From: an uncultured Saprospiraceae bacterium
GTDB lineage: Bacteria; Bacteroidota; Bacteroidia; Chitinophagales; Saprospiraceae
Direction of reading: 5' to 3'
DNA length: 17,885 nucleotides
NCBI GenBank assembly: GCA_938044055.1
Contig: CALIQO010000628.1
Span: 1-17,885, forward strand
Numbering within the stretch: position 1 is the stretch's first letter; each line of letters starts with the position of its first letter. The notes beneath the pieces are model-generated. The model saw nothing but the letters and a program-made list of their open reading frames with translations, ran no database searches and was not told the DNA's origin. A program made the translations under genes and the position numbers. Shown here piece after piece: positions 604 to 14,635 of the stretch.

Positions 604-1054
604 ATGTTTCAGTAAATTGAATCAAGAAAGTATGAAGTTCATTAGAAAAACTATTCTTCACTAGCTAAGAACTTATCCTACAATCTCTATTGGGTTTCCA
701 ATTCAATATACCTCTTAAAGTGCACAGATTCCTTAAAGTAGCAACAGAAGCATTAAGTTAATCCAATCAGGTTCTACCTTCTAATGCCTATTAATAATTA
801 TGTATTTAGGTACTGTTGTAGAGCTGTTCTCATATTATCGCTAATTATATATTCAATATCAGCTCAAATTTTCAAATAAAACATCATCTCTTTTTTCGCC
901 CCTAATCCTTCATATAATTTTGCACATAGGCCAGTATGCGCTATTATCTACTAATTAAGTGTTCTTTCTTTAAATTTTATTGTCGTTTCACTGTTGGTGA
1001 TATAAAGGCCATTCTTGTATAAACCAAAAAAGAATGATAGCTTTACATATAACA
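604..1054. other. Intergenic region, no gene seen
   Basis: About 450 AT-rich bases between the hairpin and the arginine leader. I see no open frame of useful length, no tRNA and no repeat. It must hold the promoter of the arginine operon. Positions 915-922 (TAATTTTG) match the Bacteroidota -7 consensus TAnnTTTG exactly, but no convincing TTG lies at the expected distance upstream. An alternative, TTGCAC at 920-925 with TATTAT at 942-947, looks like a conventional sigma-70 pair, though that arrangement is not the usual one in this phylum. Confidence 0.4.
915..922 (+). promoter_or_regulatory. Candidate -7 element of the arginine operon promoter
   Basis: TAATTTTG is a full match to the Bacteroidota housekeeping -7 element TAnnTTTG. 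It would start a transcript near 930 and leave about 125 bases before the leader ORF at 1055. The -33 TTG element is not evident, so this is a weak call. Confidence 0.25.
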
Positions 1055-1147
1055 ATGCGCACGCCAGCATCACATATCACATCTTGTAACAGCTCTTCTG
1101 CTACTGTAGCAGTAAGGAGTAGCAGGCGTTTCTTCAGGGCCGCGTAG
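1055..1147 (+). CDS. Putative arginine leader peptide (30 aa)
   Basis: A short ORF from ATG 1055 to TAG 1145-1147. Arg occurs at residues 2, 21, 24, 25 and 28, so four Arg codons (AGG, AGG, CGT, AGG) sit within the last ten residues, in the order RSSRRFFRAA. This is the pattern expected of an attenuator leader peptide, where scarcity of charged tRNA-Arg stalls the ribosome near the end of the ORF. It lies 126 bases before the first gene of a complete arginine operon. Just behind it are competing RNA pairings and a hairpin with a T-run. AGG is normally a slowly read codon, which would increase sensitivity. No homologue was checked. Chance occurrence of such a cluster is possible, but the placement makes it unlikely. 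Confidence 0.6.
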   Translation: MRTPASHITSCNSSSATVAVRSSRRFFRAA

Positions 1148-1200
1148 CCCTATCACTCTACATATAACCGTATGCGGTACGGCTATTATTTTTTAATAGC
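1098..1200 (+). promoter_or_regulatory. Candidate arginine-responsive transcription attenuator
   Basis: Three groups of pairings can be drawn by hand. A pause hairpin joins 1098-1104 (CTGCTAC) to 1119-1125 (GTAGCAG); the same GTAGCAG also occurs at 1106-1112. An antiterminator joins 1139-1146 to 1171-1178, eight pairs including two G.U. A terminator joins 1168-1172 to 1178-1182, extended by 1164-1166/1184-1186 and followed by six T (1189-1194). The antiterminator and terminator share bases 1171-1178, so they exclude each other. The antiterminator's left arm covers the leader ORF's last codons and stop. A ribosome stalled earlier at Arg codons would leave this arm free (read-through), while one that reaches the stop would cover it (termination). 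The mechanism is inferred. Confidence 0.5.
1164..1194 (+). terminator. Terminator hairpin of the arginine leader
   Basis: CCGTA (1168-1172) pairs with TACGG (1178-1182) around a five-base loop. After one mismatch, ATA/TAT (1164-1166/1184-1186) extends the stem. The run TATTTTTT follows directly. A second hairpin, GCTATTA/TAATAGC (1182-1188/1194-1200), holds the T-run in its loop and overlaps the descending arm, so it may help destabilise the terminator. Confidence 0.4.
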
Positions 1201-1273
1201 TACACCCCGACGAGATCTGGACTCGGATCATCGCCTATCCCACTATTTTAATTTATACAATACACTTAAGATC

Positions 1274-1849
1274 ATGTCGATCATCATAAGAAAAAGTCAA
1301 TCTTCCGATATAGTCTATGCGCTGAACTTGTCAGCATTATATAAAGCATCCGCCGCTAGACGTAAGACAGGAATTGCTACACGCTCTGCAGAGTATATAT
1401 GCTCTAAGATAGAAAAGGGCGATGCCATCATTGCTTTAGAAAACGATCAACTCGCAGGGTTCTGTTACATTGAAACATTTACAGAAGGAAGCTATGTTTC
1501 TAACAGTGGCCTGATTGTAGACATCCCATTCCAAGGGCTCGGACTGGCCAGTAAAATTAAAAAGGCTGTTCTCAACCTTGCAAGAGAAAAATATCCCGAA
1601 GCACAAGTCTTCGGAATAACAACCAGTCCCATCGTTATGAATATCAATTTCCGACTAGGGTACAAACCTGTTCCCTTCCATCAGTTGACAGATGACGAAG
1701 AGTTCTGGAACGGTTGCAAGACATGTGTCAACTATGATGTACTCACACGCAACCGAAAAGAACTGTGCCTCTGTACAGGAATGATTGCCCCATCTGGAAA
1801 TGAATTACAATCCATCAAAAAAAATGAAAATGAAAACAAAGAAAAATAA
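1274..1849 (+). CDS. GNAT-family N-acetyltransferase, probable N-acetylglutamate synthase
   Basis: A 191-residue single-domain GNAT protein. The acetyl-CoA loop is visible as QGLGLA (residues 87-92). The opening MSIIIRK is the usual beta-1 strand, and TGIATRS at 32-38 and NSGLIVD at 77-83 match the acetyltransferase that precedes argG in Bacteroidota arginine clusters. It would supply N-acetylglutamate from glutamate and acetyl-CoA, the first step of the pathway. No argA-type or argJ gene is present, so this role fits. Four cysteines near the C-terminus (C148, C151, C165, C167; CxxC and CxC) look like a metal or redox site. The frame is open upstream to 1172, but that part overlaps the attenuator and does not look like GNAT sequence, so I start at ATG 1274. 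The 3' end overlaps argG by 26 bases through an A-rich tail. Confidence 0.8.
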   Translation: MSIIIRKSQSSDIVYALNLSALYKASAARRKTGIATRSAEYICSKIEKGDAIIALENDQLAGFCYIETFTEGSYVSNSGLIVDIPFQGLGLASKIKKAVLNLAREKYPEAQVFGITTSPIVMNINFRLGYKPVPFHQLTDDEEFWNGCKTCVNYDVLTRNRKELCLCTGMIAPSGNELQSIKKNENENKEK

Positions 1850-3038
1850 AGTCGTACTTGCCTATAGTGGCGGGCTAGACACTTCCTTCTGTGTAACATA
1901 CCTGACAACAGAAAAAGACATGGAAGTCCACGCTGTAGTGGCTAACAATGGTGGATTCTCTAGGGAGGAAATAACAGCCATGGAAGAACGCGCTTACTTT
2001 CTCGGAGCAAGTAGCTTTCTAGAAATCGACATCACACAACGGTACATCGATGACTGCATCAAGTATATGATCTATGGCAACATAAAAAGAAACGGCACCT
2101 ATCCATTATCTGTCAGTAGCGAGCGTATGTTTCAGGCACTTGCTATAGTCGATCATGCTCAATCTATAGAAGCAGATGCCATCGCTCACGGATCTACTGG
2201 AGCAGGAAACGATCAAGTGCGTTTCGATCTCGTCTTCAAGACGTATGCTCCCCATATGGAAATCATCACACCTATCCGGGACATGAAATTATCTCGTCAA
2301 TATGAAATTGACTACCTTAAAAAAGCTGGTCTGGAATGGAACAGCGAAAAATCAATATACTCCATTAACCAAGGATTGTGGGGAACCAGTATCGGTGGAA
2401 AAGAAACCCTTACTTCTGAACTCCCTCTCCCCGACGCTGCATATCCACACCAGCTAGAAAAAGAAAACCCCTTAGAACTAAGCATAACTTTCGATCATGG
2501 AATACCTGTTGCTCTGAATGGCAATGAATACGACCAATTAGAAAACCTGATTCAGGACTTAAACCTTCTAGGTTATCAATATGCCATCGGTAGAGACATA
2601 CATGTAGGAGACACCATCATCGGAATTAAGGGGCGGGTTGCTTTTGAAGCGCCCGCTGCTTTATTGTTAATCGATGCACACACTTTGCTTGAAAAACATG
2701 TTCTTACTAAACATCAGATATACTGGAAGACGCAAGTGGGCAACTGGTATGGCATGATGCTGCATGAAGGAAACTATCTAGAACCTACCATGCGCTGGAT
2801 GGAAACTCTACTTAATGAAAGTCAGAAGCACGTAAGCGGAGATGTCATGCTTACTCTACATCCTTATCGGTATACCCTCAATGGAATTTCTTCTGCACAT
2901 GATCTTATGAAAGCTAAGTCTGGCATCTACGGAGAAGAAAATTCTGCATGGACTTCTGATGAAGCTAAAGGGTTTATTCAACTCCTTTCTATCTCCAATC
3001 AGAATTATTACTCCATCCACAAAGAAGAGCTAGCATGA
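1824..3038 (+). CDS. argG: Argininosuccinate synthase
   Basis: It joins citrulline and aspartate with ATP to give argininosuccinate, AMP and PPi, the penultimate step of arginine synthesis in the cytosol. The ATP-pyrophosphatase motif AYSGGLDTS lies at residues 13-21. The citrulline/aspartate-binding motif appears as GSTGAGNDQVRF (133-144), where many homologues have GCTGKGNDQVRF. At 404 residues it has the normal family length. Start: ATG 1824, with ATG 1830 as an alternative two codons later; the frame is open back to 1785, but that extra sequence overlaps the upstream gene and is not family-like. The start lies inside the preceding acetyltransferase gene, suggesting coupled translation. 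The stop overlaps the argC start by four bases. Confidence 0.95.
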   Translation: MKMKTKKNKVVLAYSGGLDTSFCVTYLTTEKDMEVHAVVANNGGFSREEITAMEERAYFLGASSFLEIDITQRYIDDCIKYMIYGNIKRNGTYPLSVSSERMFQALAIVDHAQSIEADAIAHGSTGAGNDQVRFDLVFKTYAPHMEIITPIRDMKLSRQYEIDYLKKAGLEWNSEKSIYSINQGLWGTSIGGKETLTSELPLPDAAYPHQLEKENPLELSITFDHGIPVALNGNEYDQLENLIQDLNLLGYQYAIGRDIHVGDTIIGIKGRVAFEAPAALLLIDAHTLLEKHVLTKHQIYWKTQVGNWYGMMLHEGNYLEPTMRWMETLLNESQKHVSGDVMLTLHPYRYTLNGISSAHDLMKAKSGIYGEENSAWTSDEAKGFIQLLSISNQNYYSIHKEELA

Positions 3039-4006
3039 ATCATATAAATAAAAAATCTGTCGGAATTATAGGAGGTGGAGGCTACACTGCCGGTGAACTT
3101 ATCCGCTTACTCGTACACCATCCAGAGGTGGACATAAAATACATCTATAGCCAGAGTCAAGCAGGCAAGCATGTATATGAAGTTCACTCAGACATGCTTA
3201 CTCACCCTCACTTGACTTTCTCTCATGAACCCTCAGATGCAGATGTTGTATTTTTATGTCAAGGACATGGTAAGGCTAAGGCCTTTTTAGAAAAATTTTC
3301 TTTTTCAGAAGAAACGATCATTATCGACTTAGGCAATGACCATCGTATAGAAAACAAGGAATGGATATACGGTCTTCCAGAACTTCAGAAAGATGCCATA
3401 AAGAATGCCACACGGATTGCTAATTGTGGATGTTTCGCAACTGCCATTCAGCTTGCTTGTCTTCCCCTTGCGGCAAATGGAATGCTCACCTCAGACATAC
3501 ATGTAAGTGCCATAACCGGCTCTACTGGTGCAGGACAGAATCCATCCCCTACTACACATTTCTCATGGAGAAATAATAATGTATCCATCTACAAAGCTTT
3601 TTCTCATCAGCATGAAGCAGAGGTATATCAATCTATCCATGTGTTGCAAAAAAATTATTCAGGAAAGATCTGGTTTCTTCCACACCGTGGAAATTTTTCT
3701 AGAGGAATCCTTGCAAGCATATACACACCATTTAGTGGAAGTCAAGAAGATGCTTATGCCTTATATAATTCTTTCTATGAGGAACACCCATTTGCGCAAG
3801 CGACTCAATCAGTCATCAACTTAAAACAAGTGGTCAATACCAATCATTGCTTCTTACGTCCCACAGTATCCGATGGCATGATTCTCATAGAATCTATCCT
3901 AGATAATTTACTAAAAGGAGCTTCTGGTCAAGCGGTGCAAAACATGAACCTTGCACTGGGCTATCCTGAAGAGACTGGACTATTACTTAAATCTATAGCA
4001 TACTAA
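3035..4006 (+). CDS. argC: N-acetyl-gamma-glutamyl-phosphate reductase
   Basis: It reduces N-acetylglutamyl phosphate with NADPH to the semialdehyde, third step of the pathway. A glycine-rich Rossmann motif GIIGGGGYTAG lies at residues 10-20. The catalytic cysteine is C133 in ANCGCFAT, where the usual motif is NPGCYPT: proline is replaced by C131. The conserved histidine motif near 217 reads LPHRGNFSRG, resembling PHLxPxxRG. Length is 323 residues, typical for the short ArgC form. ATG overlaps the argG stop (ATGA). Only four bases separate it from argD. The motif changes appear to be a clade variant rather than decay, since the rest of the protein is intact. Confidence 0.93.
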   Translation: MNHINKKSVGIIGGGGYTAGELIRLLVHHPEVDIKYIYSQSQAGKHVYEVHSDMLTHPHLTFSHEPSDADVVFLCQGHGKAKAFLEKFSFSEETIIIDLGNDHRIENKEWIYGLPELQKDAIKNATRIANCGCFATAIQLACLPLAANGMLTSDIHVSAITGSTGAGQNPSPTTHFSWRNNNVSIYKAFSHQHEAEVYQSIHVLQKNYSGKIWFLPHRGNFSRGILASIYTPFSGSQEDAYALYNSFYEEHPFAQATQSVINLKQVVNTNHCFLRPTVSDGMILIESILDNLLKGASGQAVQNMNLALGYPEETGLLLKSIAY

Positions 4007-4010
4007 TCTT

Positions 4011-5168
4011 ATGAAAAATTTATTGCCTGTATATCCTGTTTTTCAGATCGAACCTGTCCGTGGGGATGGATGCTACATTTATGACAAAGATGATAATCGA
4101 TACTTAGATTTTTATGGCGGTCATGCTGTAATTTCAATCGGACATAGTCATCCTGTCATGAAGAAAAGATTAAAAGCTCAGATCGATGAACTGATGTTTT
4201 ATTCTAATTCTATTGTTAATTCTAAACAACAAGAAGTAGCAGAAAAAATTATTTCTCTTTCTGGAATATCGGAGGATTATAAATTCTTCATGGTTAACTC
4301 CGGTGCTGAAGCAAATGAAAATGCTGTAAAGCTCGCTTCCATGGCCAATGGTAAAAATACATTCGTTGTACTGGAAAATGGGTTTCATGGAAGGACCGCA
4401 GCAGCCTTGAGTCTGACAGATAAAATGAAACACCGCACGGCTTTCAACACAGATTTTAAGGTAATCAAGGTTGCCATCAACGACACCGAAGCGCTGGATC
4501 ATGTTATGGAAAACGAATCCGTATGTGCTGTAATAACTGAAGCCATACAAGGGATAGGCGGCATCTATTCTTGTAACAAGTCATTCTTACAGGCCATCAG
4601 AAAACATTGCGATGAAAAGCAATCAATATGGATTGCAGATGAAGTACAGTGTGGATTCGGAAGGTCTGGAAAGTTCTGGGCTTTCCAGCATGCAGATGTA
4701 GAACCCGATATCATCACGATGGCTAAAGGAATGGGAAATGGATTTCCTGTCGGCGGACTTATGATTAAAGAAAATGTACTCCCTATAGAATACGGAATGG
4801 CTGGCACAACATTCGGAGGAAATCACCTAGCTTGCGAGGCTGTTCTATCTGTTCTAGAAGTACTGGAATCAGAGAATCTAATCCAGCGTGCTGCAGAAGC
4901 TGGAGAATGGATTAAGCAAGAACTCGTGCAGATGATGGGGGTAAAAGAAGTCAGAGGCAAGGGCCTGATGATCGGCATCGAAATGAAATTTCCCATTGCT
5001 GAACTAAGAAAAAAAATGGTCGTAGAAGAAAAAATATTTACAGGATCTTCCTCACAGAAAAACACCTTGCGATTGCTGCCCCCGCTTAATATTCCAGATG
5101 ATGCCATCCATTACTTTCTCCACACGTTACAGAAAAGTATCGGCGCTCATATTAATGTAACTATATAA
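4011..5168 (+). CDS. argD: Acetylornithine aminotransferase
   Basis: A class III PLP-dependent aminotransferase of 385 residues, transferring an amino group from glutamate to N-acetylglutamate semialdehyde to give N-acetylornithine. Visible motifs are NSGAEANE (96-103, phosphate binding), GFHGRT (124-129), IADEVQCGFGR (208-218, with D210 contacting the PLP ring nitrogen) and the Schiff-base lysine K239 in MAKGMGNG. Membership of the arginine operon favours ArgD over other class III aminotransferases. It may act on succinylated substrate instead if the pathway is the succinyl variant. The gene follows argC by four bases and precedes the carbamoyltransferase by eleven. Confidence 0.92.
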   Translation: MKNLLPVYPVFQIEPVRGDGCYIYDKDDNRYLDFYGGHAVISIGHSHPVMKKRLKAQIDELMFYSNSIVNSKQQEVAEKIISLSGISEDYKFFMVNSGAEANENAVKLASMANGKNTFVVLENGFHGRTAAALSLTDKMKHRTAFNTDFKVIKVAINDTEALDHVMENESVCAVITEAIQGIGGIYSCNKSFLQAIRKHCDEKQSIWIADEVQCGFGRSGKFWAFQHADVEPDIITMAKGMGNGFPVGGLMIKENVLPIEYGMAGTTFGGNHLACEAVLSVLEVLESENLIQRAAEAGEWIKQELVQMMGVKEVRGKGLMIGIEMKFPIAELRKKMVVEEKIFTGSSSQKNTLRLLPPLNIPDDAIHYFLHTLQKSIGAHINVTI

Positions 5169-5179
5169 TCAATCTCACT

Positions 5180-6127
5180 ATGAAAAATCACTATTACTCT
5201 TTCAATAGCATATACGATCCCAGTTCTCTTATACGTCGAGGATTAGAAATGAAACAGAAAAAAGTAATTTCTGAGATCGGTAAAAATAAAACCATAGGAT
5301 TGGTTTTTCTCAACCCCAGTCTCAGAACTAGAATGAGTACTCATGAAGCTGCGAATCGATTATCCCTGCATGTCATAACCTTCAATGGTCAAGATGCATG
5401 GTCGTGGGAAATGGAAGAAGGAGCCATCATGAATGTCAATAAAACAGAACATATAAAAGACGCTGCACGTGTCATATCTTCTTACGTGGACATCATAGGG
5501 ATCCGTTGTTTCGCAGGACTAAAAGACATAGAGGAAGATCGAAATGACACAGTGATTAAAAAATTTATGTCATACAGTTCAGTTCCTGTAATCAATCTAG
5601 AATCTGCAGCACTCCATCCTTGCCAGTCACTTGCTGACATGATCACAATGCGAGAAATCTATGGAGAAAAAAAATTGAAGGTTGCGCTTACATGGGCACC
5701 TCACCCAAAAGCTCTCCCACAGGCAGTTGCTCAATCTTTTTCTCAGTGGGCTATAGGTATGGGTCACGATGTAGTCATCGCACATCCAGAAGGATATGAT
5801 CTCGATACTTCTTTCACTACAGGTGCAAAAATTACACACGACCAGGAAGAAGCTATCCGAGGCGTGGATATTGTCTATGCTAAAAGCTGGACCAGCGAAA
5901 TCGATTACGGAAAAGCCACAACAGCATACAACAACTGGACACTAAATGATCAGAAGATGGAACTTTCTGATGGAGGCCGATTCATGCATTGTCTTCCAAT
6001 CAGAAGAAATGTAGTTGCCACTGATGAAGTGCTTGATAGTTATCAGAGCTTAATATATACACAAGCAGAAAATCGGTTGTACGCCGCTCAAGCCATCATA
6101 GAAAAAATACTAAAATCAGAACAATGA
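5180..6127 (+). CDS. argF': N-acyl-L-ornithine carbamoyltransferase (acetyl or succinyl)
   Basis: It transfers the carbamoyl group to N-acylornithine, giving N-acylcitrulline, so deacylation comes after this step. The carbamoyl-phosphate site reads SLRTR (47-51). HPCQ lies near residue 147 and HCLPIRRN near 270. WAPHPKALPQAV near 178-189 closely matches the Bacteroides fragilis succinylornithine enzyme rather than ordinary ornithine carbamoyltransferase. Length is 315 residues. By motif alignment from memory, T89 (in NVNKTEH) sits where the B. fragilis enzyme has Pro90 and the Xanthomonas acetylornithine enzyme has Glu92, so substrate choice cannot be read off directly. The gene overlaps argB by four bases (ATGA). 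Confidence 0.88.
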   Translation: MKNHYYSFNSIYDPSSLIRRGLEMKQKKVISEIGKNKTIGLVFLNPSLRTRMSTHEAANRLSLHVITFNGQDAWSWEMEEGAIMNVNKTEHIKDAARVISSYVDIIGIRCFAGLKDIEEDRNDTVIKKFMSYSSVPVINLESAALHPCQSLADMITMREIYGEKKLKVALTWAPHPKALPQAVAQSFSQWAIGMGHDVVIAHPEGYDLDTSFTTGAKITHDQEEAIRGVDIVYAKSWTSEIDYGKATTAYNNWTLNDQKMELSDGGRFMHCLPIRRNVVATDEVLDSYQSLIYTQAENRLYAAQAIIEKILKSEQ

Positions 6128-6900
6128 TGAAGCAGTGTACGCTAGTTAAAATCGGTGGCCAGGTCATCGATAATTCAGATAAATTGAAAACATGCTTAGA
6201 TGCATTTTCTTCAATACCCGGGAAGAAAATCCTTATCCATGGAGGAGGGAAGTCTGGAAGTGACATGCTTAAAAAATTAGGAATCGAAGTCAAGTATATA
6301 GACGGAAGAAGAATTACAAACAAGAAAACACTAGAGGTCGTTACACAGGTTTACGCTGGCTCTGTCAATAAGAAAATTGTTGCTCAACTACAGGCTCGAA
6401 ATATATCTGCTCTAGGATTGTCAGGTTGTGACCTCAATATAATTCAAGCTGAAAAGCGGCCTTCTCTCCCTATGGATTACGGCTATGCGGGAGACATTAA
6501 AAAGGTACATACTGATAAGTTGGAATGGTTGCTTTCTCATCAAGTATGTCCAGTTATTAATCCTATTACCCACAATGGAGAAGGACAACTCTTGAATACC
6601 AATGCCGATACAATTGCCGCTGAAGTTGCCATTTCTCTGTCTTCCATATTCAGTATAAACTTGCACTACTGTTTCGAGATGCCCGGAGTTATGATGGATA
6701 TCAACAATCCTCATTCTCTACTGAATCAACTCACACAGAATCAGTACACTGAATATCAAGAGTCAGGCATTATTGCAGCAGGAATGATTCCTAAATTATC
6801 TAATGGGTTCAGAGCAGTAAGTGCTGGCAACACCCATGTAACCATAGGTTCACTCAATCATTTTATTTCTGGTGATCCACATACAATACTACGTCCATGA
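6124..6900 (+). CDS. argB: Acetylglutamate kinase
   Basis: It phosphorylates N-acetylglutamate with ATP, second step of the pathway. It is an amino-acid-kinase fold protein of 258 residues. Visible landmarks are K9 in LVKIGG (the lysine matching E. coli K8), HGGG (39-42), DGRRIT (60-65), LNTNADTIAAEVA (157-169) and K224 in AAGMIPK, which in the family contacts ATP phosphates. The length fits the short E. coli-like form without the N-terminal helix of arginine-inhibited hexameric enzymes. This suggests that end-product control acts elsewhere, possibly at the attenuator; that is inference. Two in-frame ATGs (6124 and 6127) are adjacent; the first overlaps the previous stop. Confidence 0.92.
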   Translation: MMKQCTLVKIGGQVIDNSDKLKTCLDAFSSIPGKKILIHGGGKSGSDMLKKLGIEVKYIDGRRITNKKTLEVVTQVYAGSVNKKIVAQLQARNISALGLSGCDLNIIQAEKRPSLPMDYGYAGDIKKVHTDKLEWLLSHQVCPVINPITHNGEGQLLNTNADTIAAEVAISLSSIFSINLHYCFEMPGVMMDINNPHSLLNQLTQNQYTEYQESGIIAAGMIPKLSNGFRAVSAGNTHVTIGSLNHFISGDPHTILRP

Positions 6901-7940
6901 ATAAGCCTATAGAGTTACTTAAAGTGTTGATTCAGACGCCTTCTTTCTCAGGCAGAGAAGAGGAGACAGCAACGTTGATCTACAATTACATAAAGCCTCA
7001 TGTTGACAAAGTTGAACGATTAGACAATAACATCATCGTCCGCCCTAAGCAAGCAGATCCTCAGAAAAAGAACATCCTTTTAAACTCTCACCACGACACT
7101 GTAAAAGTTGTCGATGGATGGACTTATGATCCATTCGGAGCAGAACAGAAAGAAGAAATCATTTATGGACTTGGTAGTACTGATGCTGGTGCTAGCCTAG
7201 TCTGCTTGATAGATACATTCTTACAATTTTATCCTCTAGAAATACCATATAACCTGTATCTAGTTGCTTCTGCGGAAGAGGAAAATTTCGGAAGCCAAGG
7301 TCTTAGTTCTGTTCTTCCTAATCTACCTGATATAGACTTTGGAATAATCGGAGAACCGACTGGACTCACTTTGGGCGTGGCTCAGAAAGGATTGATAGTA
7401 GTGGATGGAACTTTACATGGAAAAGCAGGTCATGCCGCAAGAGATGTAGGAATAAATGCCATCTATGGATTACAAGATGAATTGGCTTTTTTAAATAGTA
7501 ATCCATTCTCTAAAAAGTCTGCACACCTAGGTGAGACAACTGCTAAAATGACCATGGTTACTGCTGGCCAGCTTCACAATGTAATCCCCGATTCTTGTAC
7601 CTATGTACTTGATGTCAGAGTAAATGAATTGTATACCTTACATGAAGCAATGGACGTTTTAAAATCAGGATTGAAAGCGGACTTGAAACCGAGATCCCTC
7701 CGCTGGCATTCTAGAGGAATAGATCCCTCACATCCGATCTTCCTTACGGCTAAAAACTTAAATATAAAAACGATGGGATCCCCTACCTTATCGGATCAAG
7801 TTCATTGTGATTTCCCAACAGTTAAAATAGGTCCAGGACAATCGGAACGATCTCATACAGCGGATGAATTCATCCATACACACGAAATAAAAAACGCCCT
7901 TAAAATTTATAAAGAAATTATAGAAAACATTGTCATATGA
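6897..7940 (+). CDS. argE: M20 deacylase, probable N-acetylcitrulline deacetylase
   Basis: A zinc-dependent M20 peptidase-family amidohydrolase of 347 residues. Metal and catalytic residues can be seen: H65 and D67 in NSHHDTV, D96 in GSTDAGAS, E127/E128 in SAEEEN, E153 in GEPTG, and the late histidine in ERSHTADEF. In this operon the carbamoyltransferase acts on acylated ornithine, so the deacylase most likely removes acetyl (or succinyl) from N-acylcitrulline, freeing citrulline for ArgG. The family also contains DapE and LysK; context decides for arginine. Start ATG overlaps the argB stop and its own stop overlaps argH, both by four bases. Confidence 0.88.
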   Translation: MNKPIELLKVLIQTPSFSGREEETATLIYNYIKPHVDKVERLDNNIIVRPKQADPQKKNILLNSHHDTVKVVDGWTYDPFGAEQKEEIIYGLGSTDAGASLVCLIDTFLQFYPLEIPYNLYLVASAEEENFGSQGLSSVLPNLPDIDFGIIGEPTGLTLGVAQKGLIVVDGTLHGKAGHAARDVGINAIYGLQDELAFLNSNPFSKKSAHLGETTAKMTMVTAGQLHNVIPDSCTYVLDVRVNELYTLHEAMDVLKSGLKADLKPRSLRWHSRGIDPSHPIFLTAKNLNIKTMGSPTLSDQVHCDFPTVKIGPGQSERSHTADEFIHTHEIKNALKIYKEIIENIVI

Positions 7941-9211
7941 AACTCTGGAATAACAACAACAATATAGATCAGCGTATAGAAAAATTCACCATCGGCAACG
8001 ATCCTGCTTATGACATTATCCTGGCACCATACGATGTGCAAGGTTCGCTTGCTCATGCGGCAATGTTGTACAAAATTAATTATCTGACTTCACAAGAATA
8101 TAACTTACTTAAGAAAGGACTCAATGAGATCGCCTCTGAAATCGAAGTGGGCTCATTCGTCATAGAAGACCATGTAGAAGATGTGCATTCTCAAGTAGAA
8201 AAACTACTTACCGATCGCTATGGCGATGTAGGAAAAAAACTACATGTAGGAAGGTCAAGAAACGATCAAGTAGCTGTAGATTTAAAACTCTTCTATCGAG
8301 ATGAAATAAGTAAAATTAATAGGCTGGTTAAATCACTGGCCTTAATCTTTCTTAAGAAAGCAGAAGAAACCAAGGACACATATATGCCAGGCTATACCCA
8401 TACACAAGTCGGTATGGTATCAAGCTTCGGACTCTGGTACAGCAGTTACGCAGAAGCGTTAAGTGATGACTTAGCACTTATTTTTTCCATCCAAAAAATT
8501 GTAGATCAGAATCCACTCGGTAGTGCAGCAGGATATGGAAGCTCTCTACCCAATGATCGAGATGCAACTACAGAGGCGCTCAATTTCTCAGGCATGCATA
8601 TCAATTCTATCTATGCTCAGAACAGCCGAGGAAAAAGTGAATTGATGCTTGGCTATATATTCTCAAGTATATCAGCGACACTTAACAGATGGTGTAACGA
8701 CACCATTTCTTTCTGTAATGAGAATTATAATTTTCTTAAACTTCCCGGCGATCTTACAACTGGAAGCAGCATCATGCCACACAAGAAAAACCCAGATGTT
8801 ATAGAACTTATACGGGCTAAGTGCAATCAATTATCTTCTGTGTCCTCGCAAGTACAGAACATCACTTCTAACTTGATGACCGGGTACCACAGAGACTACC
8901 AACTGTTAAAAGAAATTATTTTTCCAGCTTTCTCCACGCTGAAGTCCATCCTTGATTTAAGTATATACTGTGTCTCATCTATCGTCGAAAAGGAAGACAT
9001 CATGGAAGACGAAAAATATACCTACTGCTATAGCGTAGAAAAGGTCAATGCTTATGTGAAAAAAGGAATATCGTTTAGAGATGCTTATCACAAGGTCAAG
9101 GATGAAATCAATTCAGGTTCATTCAGTATTGAAAGTATAACCATTGATCATACGCATATAGGCAGCATGGGCAATCTAGGGATTGATAGAATTAGAGAAA
9201 AAATCGGATAA
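7937..9211 (+). CDS. argH: Argininosuccinate lyase
   Basis: It splits argininosuccinate into arginine and fumarate, the last step of the pathway. It belongs to the fumarase/aspartase superfamily, with the signature GSSIMPHKKNP at residues 276-286 (S277 matches the catalytic serine of the flexible loop), HVGRSRNDQ (103-111) and the catalytic histidine in GYTHTQ (152-157). Length of 424 residues is slightly short of the usual 450-460 but typical for this phylum. It is the last gene of the tightly packed block. The following 82-base gap contains no obvious terminator, so some read-through into the glucanotransferase gene is possible. Confidence 0.93.
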   Translation: MKLWNNNNNIDQRIEKFTIGNDPAYDIILAPYDVQGSLAHAAMLYKINYLTSQEYNLLKKGLNEIASEIEVGSFVIEDHVEDVHSQVEKLLTDRYGDVGKKLHVGRSRNDQVAVDLKLFYRDEISKINRLVKSLALIFLKKAEETKDTYMPGYTHTQVGMVSSFGLWYSSYAEALSDDLALIFSIQKIVDQNPLGSAAGYGSSLPNDRDATTEALNFSGMHINSIYAQNSRGKSELMLGYIFSSISATLNRWCNDTISFCNENYNFLKLPGDLTTGSSIMPHKKNPDVIELIRAKCNQLSSVSSQVQNITSNLMTGYHRDYQLLKEIIFPAFSTLKSILDLSIYCVSSIVEKEDIMEDEKYTYCYSVEKVNAYVKKGISFRDAYHKVKDEINSGSFSIESITIDHTHIGSMGNLGIDRIREKIG

Positions 9212-9293: not shown

Positions 9294-11933
9294 ATGGCCC
9301 AAGTAATATTTCATATTCTTTACTATACATATCGAGATGAGAGCGTACACGTTAAAGTATATCAGGGTGAAAAAATTATAAATGTTGATCTATCATCAAC
9401 GGACAATAAAAACTGGAAGGGCACTTACGAAACAGATCTTAAAACATGTAAGTATTCATATGAAATAGAATCAAAGAATAATTCGATAGCAGAGTATGGA
9501 AAGCCTAGAGTTATATTGCTAAATCATATGCAAGTTGAAGTTTACGATCAATGGAGACCACGAGGAGATCGCAAGCATATATTTTCTACGGCTCCTTTCT
9601 ATGAAGTCTTTAGAAAAAGGAAGATTGTTAATCGCAAGAATAATAAATCATCAACACTTATCATCCAAGTTTCGGAACCTACTTTAAGAAATGAATTTTC
9701 TATCGGTGTTTCTGGAAGTATTTCCAGCCTTGGAAACTGGAAAGAGAATATTCCTATGGTGTATCGAGGTGACGGACAATGGGAGGTTGCAGTAAACAAT
9801 ATAATCCTCCACCCTTCTTTCGAATTTAAATTCATCAAAATCGATAATGCTACAGGTAAGATTGTAGAATGGGAAGCAGGAGAAAACCGTAAGATCATAG
9901 TTGATCAAGTCGAGGGTTGTAAAATCATATCGCAGGAAGGGTGTAGATTTCAAGAACCTTTATGGCGAGTTGCTGGAGTTGCAATCCCAGTTTTTTCACT
10001 TAGAAGCATTGAAGGAGGCGGAATAGGAGAGTTTCTTGATCTTAAAAAAATGATCAACCTAGCTTCAAAGTCAGAATTAAAAATTGTTCAGATTCTTCCG
10101 GTGAATGACACCATTGCTACTAAGACATGGAAAGACAGTTATCCGTATGCAGCCATATCTGTTATGGCCTTGCATCCTCTATATATCCACTTAGAAGGAA
10201 TCGGTCCATTAAATGTTTCTGACCAGAAGAAGTGGGATAAGGAAAAGGAAATTATGAATTCGCATACAGCGGTTGACTTCGAAGCGGTATTGAAAAGTAA
10301 AACGACTTACTTAAGAAAGTTGTACAAGAAGTACGGAAAGAAAACATTTGCGGAAGCGGGATACAAAACATTTTATAAAGAGAATCATGACTGGTTAGAT
10401 GCATATGCTTCCTTCTGTTACTTAAGAGACTTATATAAAACTGCAGATTTCAGTAAATGGAAAACCCACAAGGATTACAATCAAGAAAAAATCAACTTGC
10501 TGATAGAAAGTGATCCTGTTATACAACATGAAGTAGGCTTCTATTTTTTCTGCCAGTATTACGCAGATAAGCAATTAAAATCTGTGAAGGATTATGGGAG
10601 AAAAAAAGGTGTCATCCTTAAAGGGGATTTACCGATCGGAATCTATCGACACAGTTGCGATGCGTGGATGTCTCCTGAATTATACAATATGGATGAGCAA
10701 GCGGGTGCACCGCCTGATGACTATGCTGTCCAAGGTCAAAACTGGGGGTTCCCGACTTATAACTGGGACACCATGGCAGAAGACAACTTCCTGTGGTGGA
10801 GACAACGGATGCAGAAACTTGCAACTTATTTCGATGCACTCAGAATCGATCACATTCTAGGGTTTTTCAGAATATGGCAGATTCCTTATGATCAAGTTCT
10901 CGGCACAATGGGATTGTTTAATCCGCGGATGCCATATACACAAGATGAAATAGAACACGCCGGACTTTCAGATCTGAAAAGACTGACACGTCCCTATATA
11001 CGGCTGTATATGTTGAAAGAAATATTTCAAGAAGATTGTGACTGGGTCATCAATCGATTTTTAGAAGAAGTGTGGCCAGGCAGCTATAAGTTTTTAGAAA
11101 AATATGATACACAACAGAAAATCAAAAAAGCGTTTTCTCTAAAGAAAAACAAGGACAAACAGTTTTTACAGATTCCTGTGCAGAATCTAATCGGAGAAGT
11201 ATTATTGCACACAGAAGTTGTAGATGGAAACGTTAAATATAGCCCCCGGATTAGTTTACACAACACATACTCTTTTAAATCCCTTAGTGAGTACGACCAA
11301 GGGATTGTCAATATGCTCTACAACGATTACTTCTATAACCGACACAACCAGTTCTGGAAAGAACAAGCACTGTGGAAGTTGCCTGCATTACTGGATAGTA
11401 CGGACATGCTTATATGTGGTGAGGACCTAGGAATGATTCCAGCAAGTGTACCTGAGGTTATGCGTCAGCTAAATATCATGCCTCTAGAAATCCAGCGTAT
11501 GCCGAAAGGATCTACTCGACTCGGGGATCCAAAGGCCTATGATTACTTTACAGTATCTAGTCCATCTTGCCACGACATGTCTACCATCCGAGGGTGGTGG
11601 TCAACCGATCGTTCTTCTGCACAGTACTATTATAATGCCCGTCTTAAGTTATGGGGAGATGCGCCGATTGAAGCATCTAGTGAAATAGTTACACACATTA
11701 ATCGAGAACACTTGCAAGGACCGTCGATGATAGTCGTAATCCCATTACAAGATTGGCTCGGTATGGATAACTCGCTTAAGAATCCAGACATCTATATAGA
11801 GCAGATTAATGAACCCAGTAATCCAGATCATTACTGGAGGTATAGAATGCATATCAACCTAGAAGATCTTCTAAAGGAGAAAGGTTTTATTTCATCGGTT
11901 AAGAAAATGGTTGAAGAGAGCTACAGAAATTAG
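9294..11933 (+). CDS. malQ: 4-alpha-glucanotransferase, DPE2-like, with starch-binding modules
   Basis: A GH77 amylomaltase that transfers glucan segments between maltose, maltodextrins and glycogen, normally cytosolic. The 879-residue protein has the architecture of plant DPE2 and Bacteroides MalQ. Two N-terminal beta-rich modules of CBM20 type lie at about 1-105 and 128-225; the second is the clearer, with W159 (LGNWK) and W202 as likely glucan-binding tryptophans. The GH77 domain starts near 230. Catalytic residues by motif are D519 (RIDHI, nucleophile), E710 (GEDLG, acid/base) and D761 (SCHDM). D519 and E710 are about 190 residues apart, against roughly 50 in small GH77 enzymes, showing the insertion typical of DPE2. 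No signal peptide is seen. The gene is closed by the terminator at 12013-12054. Confidence 0.9.
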   Translation: MAQVIFHILYYTYRDESVHVKVYQGEKIINVDLSSTDNKNWKGTYETDLKTCKYSYEIESKNNSIAEYGKPRVILLNHMQVEVYDQWRPRGDRKHIFSTAPFYEVFRKRKIVNRKNNKSSTLIIQVSEPTLRNEFSIGVSGSISSLGNWKENIPMVYRGDGQWEVAVNNIILHPSFEFKFIKIDNATGKIVEWEAGENRKIIVDQVEGCKIISQEGCRFQEPLWRVAGVAIPVFSLRSIEGGGIGEFLDLKKMINLASKSELKIVQILPVNDTIATKTWKDSYPYAAISVMALHPLYIHLEGIGPLNVSDQKKWDKEKEIMNSHTAVDFEAVLKSKTTYLRKLYKKYGKKTFAEAGYKTFYKENHDWLDAYASFCYLRDLYKTADFSKWKTHKDYNQEKINLLIESDPVIQHEVGFYFFCQYYADKQLKSVKDYGRKKGVILKGDLPIGIYRHSCDAWMSPELYNMDEQAGAPPDDYAVQGQNWGFPTYNWDTMAEDNFLWWRQRMQKLATYFDALRIDHILGFFRIWQIPYDQVLGTMGLFNPRMPYTQDEIEHAGLSDLKRLTRPYIRLYMLKEIFQEDCDWVINRFLEEVWPGSYKFLEKYDTQQKIKKAFSLKKNKDKQFLQIPVQNLIGEVLLHTEVVDGNVKYSPRISLHNTYSFKSLSEYDQGIVNMLYNDYFYNRHNQFWKEQALWKLPALLDSTDMLICGEDLGMIPASVPEVMRQLNIMPLEIQRMPKGSTRLGDPKAYDYFTVSSPSCHDMSTIRGWWSTDRSSAQYYYNARLKLWGDAPIEASSEIVTHINREHLQGPSMIVVIPLQDWLGMDNSLKNPDIYIEQINEPSNPDHYWRYRMHINLEDLLKEKGFISSVKKMVEESYRN

Positions 11934-13012: not shown

Positions 13013-14635
13013 ATGAATAAATTCTTGATACTGTTTTCGTTAATTCTCAATGTGTTTTCAGTCGATGCACAATTCTCGCGACAAGATACGCTCAGAGGAA
13101 GCATTACTCCAGAAAGAAGCTGGTGGGATTTAAACCACTACCACTTAGATATAGAAGTTATTCCGAGTGAGAAAAAAATAGAAGGATGCAATACCATTAC
13201 TTATACTGTATTAAGCAACAATGATAAGATACAGATAGACCTGCAGCCTCCTTTAGAATTAACAAGTGCTACTCAGGATGGGCAAGACCTTACTTTTTTA
13301 CGTGAAGAGAAAACATATTTTATATCTCTCGTTAAAAATCAAGCTATCGGAAAAATTGAAAAATTGAAAGTGTGCTATACGGGATTGCCAAGAGAGGCAG
13401 TCCGCGCACCGTGGGATGGAGGAATCTCGTGGAAGAAAGATAGAGAAGGCAGTGACTTCATCGCATCCTCTTGTCAAGGTCTCGGAGCAAGCGTATGGTG
13501 GCCATGTAAGGACCATATGGCAGACGAAGTAGATAGTATGAAAATAAGTGTAGAAGTTCCCGATCACTTAATGAACGTAAGCAATGGAAGATTAAGAAAC
13601 ATAGAAACCAACTCAGATAAAAAAACAAAGACCTTCCACTGGGCAGTAAAAAACCCCATTAACAATTATGGGGTAAATATCAATATCGGAAACTACGTCC
13701 ACTGGAAAGAAATATATCAAGGAGAGAAAGGCCCATTAGATGTTTCTTACTGGGCACTTGCTCAAGATGAAGATAAAGCACGAGAACAATTCAAGGAGGT
13801 TCCTCTTATGTTAGACGCATTTGAGCATTGGTTCGGCCCCTACCCTTTCTACGAAGATGGATATCAACTTGTACAAGCGCCTTATCTAGGCATGGAACAC
13901 CAGAGCTCTATAACCTATGGAAACAAATTTCAGAAAGGATACTTAGGTAGAGACTTAAGCAATACTGGATGGGGACTAAAATTTGACTTTATTATTATCC
14001 ACGAATCTGGTCATGAATGGTGGGCCAACAATATTACCCATAAGGACATGGCTGATATGTGGATCCATGAAAGTTTTACTAACTACTCTGAAAGCTTGTT
14101 TTTAGAATATCATCATTCTAAGGAAGCTGGTCAAGAATATGTACGTGGAACTCGAACCAATATCGGAAACCAAAAACCCATGATCGGCCCTTACGGTGTA
14201 AACTATGAAGGCTACCCTATCGACGTATACTATAAAGGAGCGAATGTGTTGAACACTTTAAGAACCGTTCTTAACGATGACAACAAATGGCGGGCCTATC
14301 TGAGAGAAGTCAATAGCGTTTTCTACCACAAGACCATAACAAGCGATGACTTGGAAAAATTCTCAAGCGAATTTCTCGAAATGTCTCTTGAGAATTTCTA
14401 TGATCAATACCTACGAGATCCTAGAGTTCCTACACTTGAATATTATTTTAAGGATGGGAACTTACATTATAGATGGATAAACTGTATTCCAGATTTCGAT
14501 ATGCCTGTAGATGTGGTTGTGAATGGAGAATCACATAGACTGAATTCTACTTCTTCATGGAAAAAATTCGCTACATCAAGCACGGAACTTGATATCAATC
14601 CTAATTACTATGTAGGTAAAATGAAAAGTAGATAA
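13013..14635 (+). CDS. M1-family zinc metallopeptidase, secreted
   Basis: A gluzincin aminopeptidase of 540 residues. A signal peptide (MNKFLILFSLILNVFSVDAQ) sends it to the periplasm or beyond. The zinc site is H330-E331-x-x-H334 (HESGH) with third ligand E353 eighteen residues after the second histidine (HESFTNYSE). The exopeptidase motif usually written GAMEN appears as GMEHQ (293-297), keeping the glutamate E295, which in the family binds the substrate N-terminus. The N-terminal beta domain begins SRQDTLRGSITPERSWWDL, a common opening in Bacteroidota M1 proteins. It lacks the long C-terminal domain of full-size aminopeptidase N. Likely role: peptide scavenging. It stands alone, with a decayed copy of its own 5' end just upstream. 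Confidence 0.88.
   Translation: MNKFLILFSLILNVFSVDAQFSRQDTLRGSITPERSWWDLNHYHLDIEVIPSEKKIEGCNTITYTVLSNNDKIQIDLQPPLELTSATQDGQDLTFLREEKTYFISLVKNQAIGKIEKLKVCYTGLPREAVRAPWDGGISWKKDREGSDFIASSCQGLGASVWWPCKDHMADEVDSMKISVEVPDHLMNVSNGRLRNIETNSDKKTKTFHWAVKNPINNYGVNINIGNYVHWKEIYQGEKGPLDVSYWALAQDEDKAREQFKEVPLMLDAFEHWFGPYPFYEDGYQLVQAPYLGMEHQSSITYGNKFQKGYLGRDLSNTGWGLKFDFIIIHESGHEWWANNITHKDMADMWIHESFTNYSESLFLEYHHSKEAGQEYVRGTRTNIGNQKPMIGPYGVNYEGYPIDVYYKGANVLNTLRTVLNDDNKWRAYLREVNSVFYHKTITSDDLEKFSSEFLEMSLENFYDQYLRDPRVPTLEYYFKDGNLHYRWINCIPDFDMPVDVVVNGESHRLNSTSSWKKFATSSTELDINPNYYVGKMKSR

Follow-up and report, generated by a model that had tools for sequence, protein, structure and literature searches.

A putative arginine leader peptide attenuator at the head of the arginine operon in Saprospiraceae and other Bacteroidota

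Results

An arginine-rich ORF ahead of the arginine operon

The arginine operon in the window analysed here, a stretch of 17,885 nucleotides from an uncultured Saprospiraceae bacterium (contig CALIQO010000628.1), is preceded by a short open reading frame (ORF) with clustered arginine codons. We consider it highly probable, from the comparison of genome sequences, that this ORF is part of a ribosome-mediated attenuator responding to charged tRNA-Arg, and that this device, not the ArgR repressor, regulates the arg operon. The window alone makes a weak case, and it is the relatives that make the case strong: what their sequences bring out is the short ORF itself, its Arg content, its placement behind a promoter box, covarying hairpins further downstream and the rarity of ArgR in genomes that carry the GNAT gene opening the operon.

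The leader ORF starts with the ATG at 1055 and ends with the TAG at 1145–1147, its translation being MRTPASHITSCNSSSATVAVRSSRRFFRAA. Arginine occupies residues 21, 24, 25 and 28, the C-terminus reads FFRAA, and the stop codon lies 126 nt from the ATG of the GNAT gene at 1274. The original prediction of a 30-codon ORF with four Arg codons among its last ten, 126 nt before the operon, was reproduced in all of its coordinates. An in-frame ATG at 1034 represents an alternative start, with which the leader would comprise 37 aa. No tRNA gene was found in a search of the window.

Upstream of the leader, we noted a candidate promoter, the TAGCTTTA box of which lies 9 nt before the leader ATG. Its reference is TAnnTTTG, which we take to be the −7 consensus of Bacteroidota-type promoters and which is under-represented in the window as a whole (6 observed vs. 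19.1 expected from shuffles). In relatives with an exact box, the leader ATG is located 3–10 nt past it, and in 65 of 101 cases at 7 or 8 nt; such spacing suggests that the leader mRNA is probably almost leaderless. A second short ORF (936–1022, 28 aa, MRYYLLIKCSFFKFYCRFTVGDIKAILV) begins 13 nt past the exact TAATTTTG box listed in Table 1.

The complete arg operon predicted behind the leader was confirmed, each gene being recognized by Pfam in the order GNAT-argG-argC-argD-argF-argB-argE-argH (Table 1). Directly past it, there is an 879-aa ORF (9294–11933) that by eye resembles a 4-alpha-glucanotransferase, and further downstream a 540-aa ORF (13013–14635) that by eye resembles an M1-type metallopeptidase (HESGHEWWANN). 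In six of the genomes compared, GNAT lies within an open frame of 582–630 codons, which suggests a fusion with a neighbour gene.

Table 1. Features of the window, with positions and the basis or status of each assignment
Feature	Position	Strand	Basis or remark
Exact TAATTTTG box, possible second promoter	915..922	+	Motif scan
Candidate Bacteroidota-type promoter: TTG 1015–1017, 20 nt spacer, −7 box TAGCTTTA 1038–1045	1015..1045	+	Sequence; one mismatch to TAnnTTTG
Putative arginine leader peptide ORF	1055..1147	+	30 aa + TAG; probably near-leaderless start; window reading and relatives
Four Arg codons (1115, 1124, 1127, 1136), presumed stall sites	1115..1138	+	Sequence
Hairpin P1, AGGGC-CGCGTA-GCCCT, stop codon in loop and arm	1136..1151	+	−7.2 kcal/mol; stop-region hairpins in many relatives
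A/U-rich linker with CATAT (1161–1165)	1152..1166	+	Motif in 45/177 distinct accepted leaders, one of which (L256) is probably spurious
Hairpin P2a, ACCG-TATG-CGGT	1167..1178	+	−2.9 kcal/mol; covaries in 45 leaders
Originally predicted terminator, CCGTA/TACGG and T-rich tail	1168..1194	+	Most relatives without clear counterpart
Hairpin P3, GGT...GCTATTA-TTTTT-TAATAGC...ACC	1176..1206	+	−8.4 kcal/mol; in unconstrained fold; covaries
GNAT acetyltransferase, first arg operon gene	1274..1849	+	PF00583
argG, argininosuccinate synthase	1785..3038	+	PF00764, PF20979; mechanical ORF start, true start may be further downstream
argC-type semialdehyde dehydrogenase	3035..4006	+	PF01118, PF22698
argD-type class III aminotransferase	4011..5168	+	PF00202
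argF-type carbamoyltransferase	5180..6127	+	PF02729, PF00185
argB-type amino acid kinase	6124..6900	+	PF00696
argE-type M20 deacylase	6897..7940	+	PF01546, PF07687
argH-type lyase	7937..9211	+	PF00206

Arginine-rich leaders in related genomes

We compared the sequences preceding this GNAT gene in close relatives, named genomes (the best 80 of 585 candidates), a phylum sample and the window's own family; 15 of the fetched loci proved identical to named records across the 100 nt compared. An ORF with at least five Arg among its last 12 residues was found upstream of GNAT in 49 of 177 loci (a set that includes six duplicates), while 1.0 was expected from 3540 shuffles. The next amino acids in the same test were Leu (11 loci vs. 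6.7 expected) and Lys (4 vs. 0.3). Hence, the Arg excess upstream of GNAT is far above that of any other amino acid.

A second test was blind to Arg, taking every exact TAnnTTTG box in 268 distinct Bacteroidota loci and asking for an ATG 3–11 nt past it. At least three Arg in the last 14 residues were present in 99 of the 101 box-placed ORFs, and at least four in 83. The other ORFs of these loci, counted once per stop codon, reached the same thresholds in 132/722 and 87/722 cases, and in 11/213 and 3/213 cases where the locus also owned a box-placed ORF. Many of the 132 probably represent leaders whose box deviates from the consensus, as in the window; this control has nothing removed, whereas a control from which Arg-rich accepted leaders had been subtracted (81/826) is too low. 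Overall, the short ORF with clustered Arg codons that was to be expected in relatives is there, and an arginine leader ahead of the arg operon is indeed wide in the phylum.

Accepted leaders number 192, of which 177 are distinct; the set was chosen by Arg content, start codons were picked with a bonus for the promoter box, and nine loci were excluded manually because they were of poor quality or probably fragments of other genes. These leaders contain each of the six Arg codons (CGC 315, CGT 248, AGG 103, CGA 82, CGG 75 and AGA 48), and 164 of the 177 employ at least two kinds. Such mixed use suggests that selection acts on the amino acid and not only on an RNA motif.

To describe the spread of the leader, we used a rule of four Arg near the end, or three Arg and a perfect box, the resulting counts being raw ones. 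Within the family of the window, 126 of 298 genomes have this GNAT, and 98 of 120 loci pass the rule. In the phylum sample (73 loci, covering 72 of the 80 GNAT genera), 38 loci pass it or have the Flavobacteriaceae-type hairpin described below. All nine loci were positive in the family that includes the Balneolaceae records, as were 11 of 13 in the family to which Zobellia belongs; in a further family (f20) 4/11 were positive, with at least three Arg in 11/11. Ten of the twenty families, comprising 19 loci, had no leader by rule or hairpin, and single positives in small families may be due to chance.

Hairpins behind the leader

Taken by itself, the fold of the window is unremarkable (z = −1.41, with 19 of 200 shuffles folding as well). 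The unconstrained fold contains P1 and P3, but a small hairpin (1161–1165 with 1170–1174) replaces P2a. P2a and P3 are mutually exclusive, having bases 1176–1178 in common, and both covary in a test on the 45 leaders with a CATAT linker, the window included, in which the arms were taken by fixed positions and not by pairing, and the permutations ignore relatedness. P2a scored −5.37 against −4.46 ± 0.18 in permuted sets, and P3 −10.04 against −7.51 ± 0.29, with 0/200 permutations as good in either case. By eye, the P2a of the window differs from the usual ACCC/GGGT by a double change of C-G to G-C. P1 is nearly invariant in the 45 leaders, which makes its covariation test uninformative (87/200). 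The only genome of the same genus has the Arg leader and P1; it is outside the P2a/P3 test because its CATAT linker is absent.

Across the 177 leaders, mean fold z-scores against shuffles were −0.98 over the stop codon and −1.30 behind it, compared with −0.30 and −0.41 in control windows. A hairpin spans the stop codon in 110 of 176 leaders, these hairpins having been picked by pairing. The arm energies of P1 and P2 (a5:a3, c5:c3) were discarded as evidence: with stems picked by pairing, the argument is circular. We also rejected a protector pairing between the 3' arm of P1 and ACCC, which did not covary (110/200) and by eye is absent from the window, and found no steady covariation for P1-to-P2a or P1-to-P3 pairings among the leaders tested.

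Flavobacteriaceae-type leaders have a P1 of the kind CGCCC-GUAA-GGGUG, followed by a different hairpin with the apical loop GGUGNGUCC. The stem of this hairpin covaries: 26 of the 27 distinct cases have 5 bp or more, whereas 1000 permutations gave a mean of 11.5 and a maximum of 17. The constancy of the loop carries no weight, as the 41 loci of this set were collected by it. In these loci (L047:2872–2963 and 40 others), the hairpin is located 56–129 nt before the GNAT match. An informal look at the Flavobacteriaceae-type leaders revealed no exclusive pair like P2a/P3.

The switch proposed in the original prediction was a different one. Its antiterminator pairs 1139–1146 with 1171–1178 (8 bp, −8.9 kcal/mol), and its terminator stem pairs 1168–1172 with 1178–1182 (5 bp, −3.6 kcal/mol), six T at 1189–1194 following six bases (CTATTA) past the stem. 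Both pairings can form, and in the computed fold the antiterminator arises with a ribosome occupying the Arg codon 1124; clear comparative support is lacking for this pair of foldings, and the exclusive pair that covaries is P2a/P3. For pairing of the antiterminator type, i.e., of the 5' arm of P1 with the 5' arm of the downstream hairpin, the picture is mixed: over 139 leaders, it scored −4.13 against −3.61 and beat 30/30 free permutations, but 17/200 were as good when partners were swapped only within P1 types, and 45/200 in a positional test on 45 leaders. As a conserved element, it is not clearly supported. Compensatory changes, which had been expected in the stems, are found in P2a and P3. 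As for the six T, in the free fold they lie in the loop and adjoining pair of the larger hairpin P3, and behind the best hairpin of relatives T-rich tails barely exceed the level at random positions.

A possible course of control

From these sequences, we infer the following course of translation, stalling and early termination, including the direction of control. Transcription would start shortly upstream of the leader ATG (1055), and translation of the leader peptide would follow. With arginine in short supply, the ribosome would stall on the clustered Arg codons; with plentiful arginine, it would reach the stop codon within P1. Its position would set whether P1 forms and the choice between P2a and P3, and this choice would decide whether RNA polymerase ends early or continues into GNAT-argGCDFBEH. 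The OFF state might be represented by either P3 or P2a, with termination being intrinsic or mediated by Rho.

An intrinsic terminator as the general output appears weak. A scan of positions 700–1400 of the window found one site, compared to a mean of 0.3 in shuffles. In relatives, 39 of 157 leaders had a T-rich tail behind their best hairpin, compared with 339 of 1760 positions drawn at random, and strict terminators were detected in 12 of 177 leaders. The latter rarity proves little, since strict U-tract terminators are only mildly enriched in the loci L032–L111 (84 vs. 55, with one shuffle per sequence). A relaxed hairpin-plus-T signal was present in 87/177 leaders and 162/885 shuffles. Between leader and GNAT, C exceeds G (0.214 and 0.151), compared with 0.172 and 0.168 upstream of the leader. 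Such weak T-tail signals, along with the excess of C over G, suggest that termination may be either intrinsic and weak or Rho-dependent.

The strongest competing explanation, which overlaps with our own as a variant of it, assumes that leader translation senses arginine while the output is Rho-dependent termination or a change in RNA stability. We give it a substantial chance, although one somewhat short of even. The missing general U-tract speaks in its favour, the C-over-G composition is suggestive only, and a precedent exists in Salmonella, where the speF leader ORF orf34 contains two consecutive Arg codons, is reported to respond to arginine and involves Rho and RNase G (PMC6386406). Conversely, both of the leader types tested are followed by covarying hairpins, and the relaxed hairpin-plus-T signal is enriched.

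ArgR and the leader

No match to ArgR (PF01316) was found in the window's genome, which is 74.6% complete, nor in the five other members of its family in a sample of 395 genomes. In the whole sample, GNAT was present in 160 genomes, ArgR in 139 and both in 8, with about 56 expected for both if they were independent and lineage is ignored. This rarity is in large part a matter of lineage, since a single family contributes 80 of the 139 genomes with ArgR.

Among the eight double-positive genomes, the ArgR match is weak in two (G149 and G127) and the GNAT match in one (G216). The remaining five have strong matches to both, and in all of them argR is located directly upstream of GNAT. No ORF with at least four Arg in its last 12 residues lies within 450 nt of GNAT in four of these five argR-headed operons. 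A 13-aa Arg-rich ORF is situated between argR and GNAT at locus L185, and a 1400-nt scan yielded one Arg-rich ORF each at L184 and L186, more than 1100 nt upstream. With argR at the head and the Arg-rich ORF mostly missing there, it looks as if one operon can be headed either by argR or by the leader. In G412, a genome with GNAT and without ArgR, there is an ORF that ends in RRRR, read across masked bases as X.

It is tempting to suppose a more specific scenario for many ArgR-less Bacteroidota, namely control of arginine biosynthesis by a near-leaderless Arg leader with a non-classical early end, which would rely on Rho or some further factor, on hairpins particular to each lineage (the GGUGNGUCC-loop hairpin being one example) and perhaps on a slow Pro-stop on P1, argR and leader being swapped as heads of the operon. 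We put this forward tentatively, considering it somewhat less probable than the Rho-based variant above. Pro before a stop codon is a context that slows termination, and it is the last residue in 74 of the 177 leaders; such a slow Pro-stop could park the ribosome on P1.

Discussion

Remaining alternatives

The same Pro residues could be read differently. Leaders share a common C-terminal pattern, ..RRRP-stop, which would suit a nascent Arg-rich peptide that itself arrests the ribosome when free arginine is sensed, as the arginine attenuator peptide of fungi does. We regard this as improbable: N-terminal parts, lengths and last residues vary widely, the window itself ends in FFRAA, and Pro may be imposed by the CGCCC arm of P1. 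Equally improbable, in our opinion, is that a regulatory protein or a ligand binds the downstream hairpin while the ORF is secondary. The GGUGNGUCC loop on a covarying hairpin at 41 loci, collected by that very loop, would fit such a binder, but the window has the Arg-rich ORF without this loop, and neither the window nor 40 relative loci (two sets of 20) gave any Rfam match.

That the product of the ORF is a small Arg-rich protein with a function of its own, and the ORF no regulatory device at all, seems very unlikely, for all its wide distribution and the set distance between promoter box and start codon. By eye, the peptides are alike in little but their Arg clusters, the stop codon often falls inside one of the hairpins picked by pairing, and four of the five argR-headed operons are devoid of a nearby Arg-rich ORF. 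Least credible of all is a chance ORF with chance foldings, which the fold score of the window alone would allow and which the comparative statistics of Arg content, box placement and covarying hairpins speak against.

Comparison with known systems

Among all of these explanations, we favour the attenuator sensing charged tRNA-Arg. Ribosome-mediated attenuation is well known for the trp, his, leu and thr operons. There, as in the case described here, an ORF rich in codons for the end product precedes the operon and is followed by exclusive hairpins. Unlike those attenuators, the leader described here would respond to Arg, has its ATG near the promoter box (making it probably near-leaderless), shows no general strong U-tract and is followed by a hairpin type that depends on the lineage.

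Arginine biosynthesis is a textbook example of repressor control. ArgR/AhrC is a DNA-binding protein, and what it shares with the leader is the position that argR takes at the operon head in five relatives. An arginine T-box reads the charging of tRNA-Arg without a translated ORF; the signal would be the same as that proposed for our leader, and the ORF is what sets them apart. Bacteroid-trp RNA heads trp operons. Bacteroid-trp RNA, a T-box or another riboswitch were all considered for the window and rejected, with no Rfam match in it or in either set of relative loci. T-boxes have been named for arginine (PMC1262725), and Bacteroid-trp RNA (RF01692) is listed as a candidate cis-regulatory RNA for Bacteroidetes (PMC2864571).

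Salmonella orf34 is likewise a leader ORF with Arg codons, but the gene it controls encodes ornithine decarboxylase and does not serve arginine biosynthesis. A leader peptide has been reported for carA of Pseudomonas aeruginosa, with attenuation predicted in P. syringae (PMC4997734); carA is a single gene shared by arginine and pyrimidine synthesis, and the likeness concerns the reported leader peptide alone. In Staphylococcus aureus, the leader peptide rbfL is reported to sense arginine restriction via rare Arg codons (PMC13009471); it differs in that it has two Arg codons and blocks the ribosome binding site of rbf, with no transcription attenuation. Finally, a transcriptome of Flavobacterium psychrophilum contains clues for leader-peptide attenuation before amino-acid operons, and its supplement may include arginine (PMC9723704).

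Among the literature matches listed, judged by titles and the beginnings of abstracts, none describes an arginine leader-peptide attenuator of a Bacteroidota arginine operon, with the proviso that the supplement just mentioned may hold one. We would thus file the putative leader as a new form of ribosome-mediated attenuation, applied to arginine biosynthesis.

Overall, if our interpretation is true, a number of families in this large phylum have an arginine operon headed by a leader attenuator that is seldom found beside ArgR, which would show how an operon can exchange its sensor and keep the same genes. Bacteroidota ribosomes hardly use Shine-Dalgarno sites. The many natural variants of the leader would therefore be material for testing how attenuation works with hardly any use of such sites.
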